Below are positions 54,633 through 58,948 of a DNA stretch of 64,000 nucleotides, in pieces. Position 1 is the stretch's first letter. Every line of letters begins with the position of its first letter. The translations under genes were made by a program, and so were the position numbers. The stretch is taken from the NCBI GenBank assembly GCA_027858855.1, contig JAQIBV010000008.1:62001-126000 (forward strand), read 5' to 3'. The notes below the pieces were generated by a model. That model worked only from the letters and a program-made list of their open reading frames with translations. It did not search any database and had not been told where the DNA came from. This stretch comes from Spirochaetota bacterium (lineage in GTDB: Bacteria > Spirochaetota > UBA4802 > JAFGJZ01).

Positions 54633-56438
54633 GTGGATTTTTCAGTGTTACATGCCCTCTCTGTTCCCCTCTGTGTGCTTAACTCTTCAGGGGAGATAAT
54701 ATTTAAAAACGAATCTTTTACAGATCTGACAGGTTCTTCTGAAGCAACCGAATTGAGTCTGGACGATACGCATGAACTGTTTAATGAATACAGGAAAAAA
54801 ATAGCTCTTAATTTTTCAAAAACTCTTTCTGGTGTTGATACACGTTTTTTTGTCGTTTTGAAATCTGTCAATGGACAAAGAATTCCCGCCGAACTCTACC
54901 TCTATCCGATGAAACTGGATTCAGAAAAAGCCATAACACTAATAATTCGTCCTGTTGAAGACCGGGTTATTTCATTTGATCGTTCTACACAAGATCGCAA
55001 TGAGCATGTTGCCCTGTATGACTATTCCCCCTGTCCGGTAGTCACGGTTGATTCTTCATCCCGCATTGTACGCATAAGCAGCGCCGCAGAAAACTATTTC
55101 GGGGTTAACCGAGATATCGCTCTGGCAAAGTCGGATCAATTTGTGACATACTTTACATCATATTGTGCCGAAAAAATAAAAGCCGCAGTTTATGCAATCA
55201 GTACCGGATCAAAAAGTTTTATACGGATTAACGATCTGAAAGTTGTAGGGGCATCCGGTTTTGATAAATCATGTAATGTTGCGTTATATACAATAGATTC
55301 TGATATAAACGGTCATGATGTAGAGCTTGTATTTGAAGATACTACCCGTGTTAAGAATCTTGAAGCAAAATTGAGTAAAATGAACCGCATCCAGATCTTT
55401 AGTGATATGACAAAGGGTTTGCTCCATTCGTTCAATAATCTGATAAATGTTATTATCAATAGATCACAGATGCTTTCGCAGTTAACTGACAAACCCAATA
55501 TCCTAGATGGCCTGCAGTCAATTAATGAGTCTGCCTTAGATGCTGCAACACAGATTCGTCGGATACAGGAGTTCATTACAACAGATTCAATCGAATTTGA
55601 AGAGAAGGGTAGTGTTGAAATAATAGAACTTGTTCGTGACGCAATCGAATTTGCCTCTATTCACTTCAAAGTAGAGAGAAAGGAGAAGGGTCGCGCAATT
55701 TCGATCAGTAAGCAGTATTATACTAAGGCAAGAATTAGCGGAAACCTCAAAATATTAAGAGAAATTGTTGTCTCGATGATCTTCAGAATTTCATCTTATA
55801 TAACCAAGGCCGGTATCATTGATATCGAGTTAAAACAGGAAGAGGATATAATTTTCAGTGTTTCTATTAAAAAAGATATGATAAACAGCGATTCTGTTGA
55901 CCTGGGTGAAGGTTTTATACCTGAAATTGAATTGCGACGTATAGCTGATAAGATTAATGTTAGGATTATTGAAGAAGAGTCATCTGAGCGGATTTCTTTA
56001 AGTGCTGTTATTCCTGGTAAGATGATAGTTGCTGAAAAAAGTGAGCCATCCTCTTCTGACAAACAAAAGATACGGGATTGTGATATCTTAATTATTGAAG
56101 ATGAAGTGGCTCTGACTGAAATTTTATACGAACTGTTCGATTTTATGGGAAACCGGGTAACCATTCATGATAATGCGGAGTCTGGGCTTAAAGAGTTTAA
56201 GTCACATACCTTTGACATTGTTATCTCTGATTACGGTTTAAAAGGCATGAGTGGAGTTGAATTATTGACCGAGGTACGTTCTCTTAGTACGGATGTTGTT
56301 ACAGTTCTTTTAACCGGTTGGATGATTGATGATATACAGAATTATAATGAACAGATAGATCTTTTTCTTCAAAAGCCGTTTCAGATTGAAATACTTCTTA
56401 ATCAGATTGCAGCTAAATTGGCGGAAAAGAGACGTTAA
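54633..56438 (+). CDS. PAS-containing hybrid histidine kinase-like protein with receiver domain
   Basis: The 601-residue soluble protein has a PAS domain near residues 5-110 (LCVLNSSGEIIFKNESFTDL), a second PAS near 125-240, a HisKA-like helix (GLLHSFNNLINVIINRSQ, His present), and a C-terminal receiver (DILIIEDEVALTEILYELFD, phospho-Asp in IVISDYGLKGMSG, Lys in LFLQKPFQ). The ATPase region (LKILREIVVSMIFRISSYI and later) lacks the usual N-box Asn and the DxG of G1, so ATP binding is doubtful. The start is GTG. It may be a phosphate relay or scaffold. Confidence 0.77.
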   Translation: MDFSVLHALSVPLCVLNSSGEIIFKNESFTDLTGSSEATELSLDDTHELFNEYRKKIALNFSKTLSGVDTRFFVVLKSVNGQRIPAELYLYPMKLDSEKAITLIIRPVEDRVISFDRSTQDRNEHVALYDYSPCPVVTVDSSSRIVRISSAAENYFGVNRDIALAKSDQFVTYFTSYCAEKIKAAVYAISTGSKSFIRINDLKVVGASGFDKSCNVALYTIDSDINGHDVELVFEDTTRVKNLEAKLSKMNRIQIFSDMTKGLLHSFNNLINVIINRSQMLSQLTDKPNILDGLQSINESALDAATQIRRIQEFITTDSIEFEEKGSVEIIELVRDAIEFASIHFKVERKEKGRAISISKQYYTKARISGNLKILREIVVSMIFRISSYITKAGIIDIELKQEEDIIFSVSIKKDMINSDSVDLGEGFIPEIELRRIADKINVRIIEEESSERISLSAVIPGKMIVAEKSEPSSSDKQKIRDCDILIIEDEVALTEILYELFDFMGNRVTIHDNAESGLKEFKSHTFDIVISDYGLKGMSGVELLTEVRSLSTDVVTVLLTGWMIDDIQNYNEQIDLFLQKPFQIEILLNQIAAKLAEKRR

Positions 56439-56450
56439 TAATGTCAGTTC

Positions 56451-57452
56451 CTACATCATCTCTTGCAGTTGAGCTATCTTCTTTTTCTTTCCAACAAAAA
56501 TTAGAACATCTGACTTATCCAGTCTTAAATCCGAAGTCGGATTAAATAGCATCGATCCATTTTGCTTTTTTATTGCGATGATAATAATACCATAATCGTT
56601 ACGGATGTTGCTTTCAAGCAGCGTTTTGCCTATATATGGGGAGCTTACTGTTATAGTGACTTCTCCCAGTTCCAGGCCGAATTCAGTATCAAGCATTGTC
56701 ATGTCCATAAAGTCGACAACTGCAGGTCGTATTAAAGATTGAGCCATCCTTTTTCCACCAATGATATGTGGAAAGATTACTTTTGTTGCCCCAGCTCGCT
56801 TGAGTTTGCTTTCTGTCGAAATCTCGGAGGCACGTGCCAGGATATAGATGTTGGGGTTAATGCTGCGCGAAGTCAGAACAATAAAAACGTTATCTGCATC
56901 ACTCTGTAAGGCAGTAACAATGGCCTTGGCGCGTTTAATTCCGGCTCTGTTTAGAACTTCTTCGTTAGTTGCGTCGCCGATGATATGAATAATCTTCTCA
57001 TTTTTTAACCGTTCCTGAATTTCAGTATTGTTTTCTACTACAACACAGTCGTAGCCATTATGACTCAATTCCGAGGCTATTAGGCCGCCTATCCGACCAT
57101 AACCACATACAATGTAATGGTTCTTCATCTTTTCTATTATGCGGTTCATTTTCTTCCTCCCGAAACTTTCTTTGATTTCGCCTTCGACAATTATTTGAAT
57201 CAAAGACCCGGCCGAATAACCGACAATAAAAATACCACTGATTATAACAATGATTGTAACTATTCGCCCATTTCGGCTTAGAGGGAATATTTCCTGGAAA
57301 CCAACTGTACTGATAGTAATGAGTGTCATGTAAAAAGAGTCAAACAGTGACATCCGCTCTTCTACAATATAATAGAGGACCGTACCCAGGCTAAGCGTGC
57401 CTATCATTAGAGATAGTAGTTTAATTACTTTTTTGTAAAGAGTTGCAATCAT
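56451..57452 (-). CDS. Potassium channel with RCK (TrkA) domain
   Basis: The 333-residue protein has two TM helices around a pore with filter STVGFQEIFPLS, a TVGFQE version of TVGYGD. The cytoplasmic part is an RCK/TrkA-N domain (YIVCGYGRIGGLIASELSH, dinucleotide motif) and a TrkA-C end. It is likely a ligand-gated K+ channel. It is convergent with the hybrid kinase gene. Confidence 0.88.
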   Translation of the reverse strand: MIATLYKKVIKLLSLMIGTLSLGTVLYYIVEERMSLFDSFYMTLITISTVGFQEIFPLSRNGRIVTIIVIISGIFIVGYSAGSLIQIIVEGEIKESFGRKKMNRIIEKMKNHYIVCGYGRIGGLIASELSHNGYDCVVVENNTEIQERLKNEKIIHIIGDATNEEVLNRAGIKRAKAIVTALQSDADNVFIVLTSRSINPNIYILARASEISTESKLKRAGATKVIFPHIIGGKRMAQSLIRPAVVDFMDMTMLDTEFGLELGEVTITVSSPYIGKTLLESNIRNDYGIIIIAIKKQNGSMLFNPTSDLRLDKSDVLIFVGKKKKIAQLQEMM

Positions 57453-57787: not shown

Positions 57788-58948
57788 ATGTCAAATTATA
57801 ACTATGAGGATGGAAAGATTAACGGTAAAGAAGAGGTCGAGCTCTATTATCAGGCCTGGTTGTCTCCCAGAGAGAAGGCAATCCTGATTATTGTTCATGG
57901 TCTTGGTGAACACTGTGGTCGTTATTCCAACCTTTTAGATCAGTTAAGTGGAAAAGGTATCTCTGTTTATGGAATGGATTTGCGAGGGCATGGGAAATCG
58001 GGTGGTAGACGAGGTCATGTTGAATCCTTTCTTGATTATGTACATGATTTGAAGTCATTTATTGAATTAATTAAGGAGAAGCATGACGGTGTTCCTATTT
58101 ATATGCTGGGGCACAGTATGGGGGCTACAATTGCCTGTCGTTATGCTCTTCAGTATCAGGAGGATCTTTCTGGAATTATTACAACTGCAGGCGCTTTTAT
58201 ACCTAAGGTTGAGGTTCCATCCTTTATTCAAAAAACAGGTTTAATTTTATCTAAAATAGTGCCTAAACTTCAAAAAAAGAATGGAATTGATCCTTCGAAG
58301 TTGTCGCACGATGCAGAAGTAGTTAGTTTGTATAAGCAGGATGAACTCGTTCATGACCTGGTAACTGTCAGGTGGTATACTGAGTTTAACAAAAACGTGG
58401 AGAATTGTCTTGGCAGAGGGGTTGAGATTCGATTGCCAGCTCTTATTCTTCATGGCGGAAGTGATGAAATAGCGGATATAAAAGGAAGCAAGCTTCTTTT
58501 TGATAAAATAATGTCAACAGATAAGGAGATGAAGGTTTTTGAAGACCTTTACCATGAGATTATGAATGAAACCGGAAACAAAACCCAAGTATTAGCAGTT
58601 ATTTCTAAGTGGATGAATGATCGTATTACTGCAGTTGCGAAAAAGCTGAAAACAGAGAAGAAACCTCTTCAAAAAAAGGGGAGTCCTTCGGGCTCTGTTC
58701 CAGAAAAAGCGGTAACAAAATATTCTTCCAAAAAAGCAGTTAAAAAAGTAAAAAAAGCAGCAAAAAAAGCAGCAAAAAAGGCTGTGAAGAAGGCTGTGAA
58801 GAAGAGTGCAAAAAAAGCAGTGAAGAAACCGGCCACTAAAAAAATTGCGAAAAAAACTGTGAAGAAAACTGCAAAGAAAGCCGTAAAAAAAACATCTACA
58901 AAAAAAGCAGCAAAAAAGACGGTTAAAAAAACTGCAAAGAAAAAGTAG
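57788..58948 (+). CDS. Monoacylglycerol lipase-like hydrolase with histone-H1-like tail
   Basis: The 386-residue protein has an alpha/beta hydrolase (about residues 1-280: AILIIVHGLGEHCGRYSNLL, GMDLRGHGKSGGRRGHV, nucleophile in MLGHSMGATIACRYAL, Asp in LHGGSDEIADIKG, His in YHEIMNE), as in monoglyceride lipases and lysophospholipases. From about residue 305 the rest is a Lys/Ala tail of repeats such as KKAVKKVKKAAKKAAKK, resembling bacterial histone H1-like proteins (Hc1). Such a tail binds nucleic acid or anionic surfaces. Both parts are in one unbroken frame. Confidence 0.87.
   Translation: MSNYNYEDGKINGKEEVELYYQAWLSPREKAILIIVHGLGEHCGRYSNLLDQLSGKGISVYGMDLRGHGKSGGRRGHVESFLDYVHDLKSFIELIKEKHDGVPIYMLGHSMGATIACRYALQYQEDLSGIITTAGAFIPKVEVPSFIQKTGLILSKIVPKLQKKNGIDPSKLSHDAEVVSLYKQDELVHDLVTVRWYTEFNKNVENCLGRGVEIRLPALILHGGSDEIADIKGSKLLFDKIMSTDKEMKVFEDLYHEIMNETGNKTQVLAVISKWMNDRITAVAKKLKTEKKPLQKKGSPSGSVPEKAVTKYSSKKAVKKVKKAAKKAAKKAVKKAVKKSAKKAVKKPATKKIAKKTVKKTAKKAVKKTSTKKAAKKTVKKTAKKK

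Follow-up and report, generated by a model that had tools for sequence, protein, structure and literature searches.

Why would a hydrolase of the monoglyceride lipase family end in a long array of lysines? The question is raised by a gene of an uncultured spirochaete that occupies positions 57788..58948 (+ strand) of the window, the whole 64,000-nucleotide stretch of DNA that was analysed. The gene runs from ATG to TAG without interruption or frameshift, and encodes a protein of 386 aa in which a monoglyceride lipase-type hydrolase is joined to a C-terminal lysine-rich tail. This assignment draws on the open frame, the match to PF12146, and orthologues found through the order.

The N-terminal portion is a lipase in sequence and fold. 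The alpha/beta-hydrolase core spans residues 1-282 (57788..58633, + strand) and was delineated by Pfam, a PDB profile search, AlphaFold, and Foldseek. Residues 29-262 match the full length of the Hydrolase_4 profile (PF12146) with 259 bits. The closest solved relatives by both sequence and fold are monoglyceride lipases (MGLs), above all Rv0183 of M. tuberculosis, against which the orthologue profile scores 230 bits in the PDB profile search; the description of a complete monoglyceride lipase-type domain in the initial annotation is borne out on both counts. In the AlphaFold model, pLDDT in the core is mostly above 95. The top Foldseek matches of the core are all MGLs, at an rmsd of about 2 A (6eic, TMt 0.92), and the fold includes a cap like that of the solved MGLs. 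The catalytic triad is intact: Ser110 (codon 58115-58117) sits in the GxSxG nucleophile elbow, GHSMG, at residues 108-112 (58109..58123), as read from the sequence and alignment A1; Asp226 (58463..58465) and His256 (58553..58555, in YHE) occupy invariant columns of alignments A1 and A2; and an HG pair lies at residues 37-38. All these codons are on the + strand. The fold, the GHSxG elbow, and the Asp and His are common to this protein and to family members such as Rv0183 and human MGL. Judged from the family, the substrate is probably a monoacylglycerol or lysolipid. The protein starts with MSNYNYEDG and has no signal-like hydrophobic stretch there, so it is presumably cytoplasmic. The core has a net charge of -4 and a pI of 6.3.

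The tail is of the opposite character. Its 104 residues (283-386) comprise 46 K, 18 A, 11 V, 9 T, and 2 E, with neither D nor R, giving a net charge of +44 and a pI of 11.0. Two parts can be distinguished. Residues 283-314 (58634..58729, + strand) form a linker, consisting of the end of the last core helix followed by a low-confidence loop (AlphaFold pLDDT below 50 at 303-313). The lysine-rich repeats proper begin near residue 315 and extend to residue 386 (58730..58945, + strand); this Lys/Ala/Val/Thr segment, defined by composition, tandem-repeat arrays, and predicted helices, is about half Lys and has no acidic residues. AlphaFold predicts helices, with moderate confidence, at 315-346, 351-368, and 372-385; in a Lys/Ala stretch such predictions call for caution. 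The original estimate of about 80 residues is roughly right, since the tail measures about 72-104 depending on the start chosen. Its comparison to histone H1 holds for composition, which is Lys/Ala-rich and acid-poor, and fails for domain content: the Pfam scan of the protein, read up to an E of 0.1, contains no linker-histone globular domain, HC1, or HC2. The same scan gave no phasin domain. In the solved MGL relatives, with chains of 279-348 aa, the matched stretch ends at the last helix, and none has been reported with a lysine-rich tail.

The fusion is a shared feature of the lineage. The window genome is a 3.35-Mb draft in 63 contigs, 97% complete, and a second genome of the same genus (G001) carries the whole fusion in frame, in a protein of 394 aa that is 70% identical. 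A homologue at E <= 1e-30 is present in 41 of 46 genomes of the order, the one order by which this class-level lineage was sampled. Among 41 orthologues with a complete C-terminus, 37 end in a Lys-rich, acid-poor tail. These tails are 15-113 residues long, K+R making up 33-52% and acidic residues no more than 7%, and their genomes span 34-63% GC. The exceptions are L031, with 12 residues only; L021, in which the tail is present but out of frame; and L035 and L041, tail-less second copies in genomes (G008 and G009) whose other copies (L044, L045) are tailed. An assembly or sequencing artefact that joined two genes has virtually no chance of explaining the locus, draft assembly and repetitive tail notwithstanding, because the same in-frame fusion recurs in dozens of separately assembled genomes; with it falls the idea of a frameshift, and the fusion first noted in this one genome is genuine and has the tailed homologues for which that first reading suggested looking. 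Named records of the clade include Spirochaetes bacterium ADurb.BinA120 and other Spirochaetota metagenome-assembled genomes (MAGs). The lineage possibly corresponds to UBA4802, an uncultured class for members of which expression of syntrophic butyrate degradation has been described (PMC7382037). A plasmid search returned only hydrolases that cover the core, with 26-34% identity among the best matches.

In a maximum-likelihood tree of 79 core sequences, the tailed proteins of the order form one clade (support 94/91), which also takes in two sequences without a tail, one from a MAG labelled Syntrophomonadaceae and one from a MAG labelled Desulfohalobiaceae. The tail-less copy of G008/G009 is sister to the latter (L084), a placement that may reflect transfer or a binning error. 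Outside the order, whether in the rest of the phylum or in other phyla, the homologues examined stop with the core or continue into a tail without Lys enrichment, with one exception: L075 and L076 (G061, G117), from one genus of another spirochaete family, bear a K/A tail of 50 residues. These two fall in a different clade of the core tree, so their tail was gained independently. A deviating paralogue, L051 (G007), has a basic tail of 23 aa and lies outside the tailed clade on a very long branch.

Lysine-rich extensions on folded bacterial proteins have precedents. PhaF and AlgP of Pseudomonas, with their histone-H1-like KPAA tails, likewise combine a non-tail domain with a long, disordered, Lys/Ala-rich C-terminus, and in PhaF the non-tail domain is a lipid- or polymer-surface domain. 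They differ in that the partner is a phasin or helical domain instead of a hydrolase, and in that the repeats are KPAA instead of mainly KKxVKKxA. HBHA of Mycobacterium and its relatives TadA/MLDS are lipid-associated proteins that also end in Lys-Ala(-Pro) repeats; where the protein here has an alpha/beta hydrolase as its N-terminal part, HBHA has no enzyme domain but a coiled coil and a hydrophobic stretch. Bacterial topoisomerase I, Ku, and HupB bear comparable Lys-rich C-terminal extensions of low complexity (cited in PMC6821194 and PMC10665949), on partner domains that, unlike the lipase, already act on DNA. The lipase family is known, and so are Lys-rich tails on other domains; we found no report of their combination in the open-access literature, nor there any earlier account of a Lys-rich tail on a monoglyceride lipase. 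Within that literature, the remark that no such pairing was known stands for monoglyceride lipases and yields to PhaF, AlgP, HbhA, and topoisomerase I as parallels in principle.

These systems inform our preferred reading, to which we give a probability of roughly 0.42: the tail may serve as an electrostatic tether of a lipase-family protein, with nucleic acid its likeliest target. A cytoplasmic hydrolase of the monoglyceride lipase family would bear a long, flexible or helical polycation; the polycation would attach, with no preference for sequence, to a polyanionic surface, nucleoid DNA or RNA being the likeliest; and the lipid-binding domain would be kept there on the model of PhaF, AlgP, or HbhA. 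A tether is favoured because comparable sequences bind polyanions or membranes. The AKKA-repeat C-terminus of HbhA is necessary and sufficient for DNA binding (PMC10665949), and the KPAA tails of AlgP and PhaF have been linked to DNA binding and granule positioning (PMC9239181). The HBHA tail is also needed for binding phosphoinositides, which are anionic lipids (PMC6176652), and NmPin is directed to membranes by a patch rich in Lys (PMC4922055). On this comparison we favour nucleic acid first and anionic membrane second as the target. The tether also draws support from the charge of the tail, conserved across the lineage, from its second, separate gain, and from its persistence where the nucleophile is gone. 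The joining of a lipid enzyme to a nucleic-acid-type polycation is conserved across a whole uncultured spirochaete lineage, and bacterial H1-like tails are portable beyond DNA-binding or granule proteins. With the variants that the lineage offers (copies without a tail, an independent second origin, proteins that have lost the Ser, and split tails), comparison and simple assays can address the role of Lys-rich tails on non-DNA proteins.

The membrane deserves consideration in its own right. The tail could be an electrostatic anchor that keeps the lipase at the inner face of the cytoplasmic membrane, an anionic surface at which the lipids it acts on are generated; this is a possible reading that we nevertheless doubt. 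It suits a core that is a lipid hydrolase, as well as the lipid and membrane binding of HBHA and NmPin. Gene context contributes too: in many genomes of family f7 the lipase lies directly downstream of a same-strand ABC ATPase, whose curated matches are headed, or nearly so, by the phospholipid-transport ATPase MlaF. That match scores 197 bits, far below the cut-off of 441; no gene for MlaD or MlaE was recognised beside the f7 ATPase; and the window locus has no ABC ATPase neighbour. Apart from Ala and Val, the tail itself offers scarcely any hydrophobic or aromatic residue that could serve as an anchor.

Similar extensions elsewhere in the window genome bear on several readings. The pattern KKxxKKxxKK has 32 matches there, against 18 for a reversed-pattern control, and the lipase tail, with 11, is the longest array; the frequency of such tails was gauged from this pattern search and from 378 kb of genomic sequence picked partly around its matches. 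Extensions of the KKxVKKxAKK type occur at five further loci. An ABC ATPase (L176) and a DUF2161 protein (L189) bear them as C-terminal tails, a glycosyltransferase (L170) and one further protein (L192) as N-terminal stretches, and the fifth is found in an 80-aa basic protein (L164) that has no Pfam match. The ATPase and the glycosyltransferase can be counted in favour of a membrane anchor. The recurrence of one extension on several unrelated proteins of a genome points to a general, portable charge module.

The same recurrence is compatible with a tail that has no specific ligand: it would be a stretch of low complexity whose effect is greater solubility or net charge and whose sequence drifts as repeats slip. 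We hold this to be unlikely. Tails do vary widely in length and sequence; a range of 4-113 aa is as readily expected of a charge module under loose constraint as of a dedicated domain. The tail-less second copies L035 and L041 are in keeping with a dispensable extension, and dN/dS is higher in the tail than in the core in every pair tested, reaching about 1 in the tail of L026/L028. Lysines behave differently. In most close pairs, Lys columns are better preserved than the remaining tail columns: 41 of 47 against 22 of 55 in G000/G001, and 37 of 38 against 47 of 61 in L011/L013. Because lysines are preferentially kept despite the elevated dN/dS, we read selection as acting on the charge of the tail and not on its sequence. 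The near absence of acidic residues, the retention of the tail across a deep clade, and its renewed gain in another spirochaete family also speak against a tail without a ligand. Slippage in A-rich DNA as the sole cause is disfavoured: tail charge density shows no fall at high GC (r = 0.22 with genome GC across 34-63%), high-GC genomes retain the tail, and both AAA and AAG are used for Lys. A tail of such steady charge, written in both codons, is no artefact of A tracts.

Genus g22 provides a further case against drift alone. In five of its six genomes the frame ends within the tail (set: L012, L015, L017, L019, L021, L009), through a TAA in L015 and L017 and through frameshifts in L012, L019, and L021. 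Past the break, all six genes contain a Shine-Dalgarno motif, AAGGAGT, and then a GTG that is separated from GGAG by 8-11 bases. The GTG opens a Lys-rich frame of 25-28 codons, e.g. VGTKKSAKKTVKKAAKKSAKKTTKKKK, and a hairpin-like GC block lies 3' of it. This distal frame has a pN/pS of 0.03-0.41, with Lys positions kept at 69-100% per pair, a level of constraint past the stop that is hard to square with a ligand-free, drifting tail. As read from these sequences, either a separate mini-protein may be made or slippage on A runs, perhaps programmed, may restore the fusion. Homopolymer errors could account for single frameshifts, but not for the two in-frame stops.

The lipase active site is itself altered in parts of the lineage. 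Some orthologues lack the catalytic Ser, unlike the monoglyceride lipase family. In G002 and G003 (L008 and L007, of a sister genus), GEGFG replaces GHSMG and HD replaces HG; G003 retains a tail of 64 residues, and the G002 contig stops ahead of any tail. In G039 (L040, of another family), the motifs are GHGVG and HS, and the tail is 92 residues long. The core of G002 versus G003 has a pN/pS of 0.13, which indicates that the Ser-less protein is still under purifying selection. The loss of Ser with the tail kept, in a gene that remains constrained, speaks for a role that lies at least partly in binding and not in hydrolysis. From here one can picture a lineage-wide bridge, an improbable and speculative extension of the tether: the lipase domain would be a lipid- or membrane-binding module tied by its polycation to the nucleoid, catalysis would be dispensable (having been lost twice), and the g22 distal tail would be translated on its own, as a Lys-rich mini-protein some 27 aa long that works together with the lipase.

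Two inclusion-based ideas can be set beside these. By PhaF-type logic, an inclusion is expected for the tail to connect to the nucleoid. A tether between polyhydroxyalkanoate (PHA) granules and nucleoid is unlikely because PF07167 (PhaC_N) is found in 0 of 45 genomes of the order, in a search by this profile alone, with none specific to class III/IV synthases and with a positive control that responded. As for triacylglycerol (TAG) inclusions, WS/DGAT likewise gave no match in the 45 genomes, in a search whose control was also silent. A tail that binds polyphosphate in the style of AlgP, instead of nucleic acid or lipid, is very improbable. AlgP, with its KPAA tail, does associate with polyphosphate granules (PMC9239181), and all three genomes with Ser-less lipases (G002, G003, G039) are among only 5 of 45 in the order that have PPK1; this coincidence is post hoc and involves two independent lineages. 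A search limited to PPK1, among the polyphosphate kinases PPK1 and PPK2, detected the gene neither in the window genome nor in 40 of the 45 genomes, most of them tailed, and its rarity makes polyphosphate unlikely as a general ligand.

The remaining neighbours of the gene are conserved to varying degrees. Pfam and neighbour comparison identify a PAS/response-regulator protein upstream (54633..56438, + strand), which precedes the lipase in families f1, f5, and f6. Between the regulator and the lipase lies a TrkA-type potassium channel (56451..57452, - strand), recognised by the same means and found in the same order and on the opposite strand in f5 and f6 genomes. In genomes of f3-f6, a flagellin gene follows the lipase on the opposite strand. 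In three f7 genomes (L010, L031, L039), a class II DAHP synthase gene lies downstream on the same strand.
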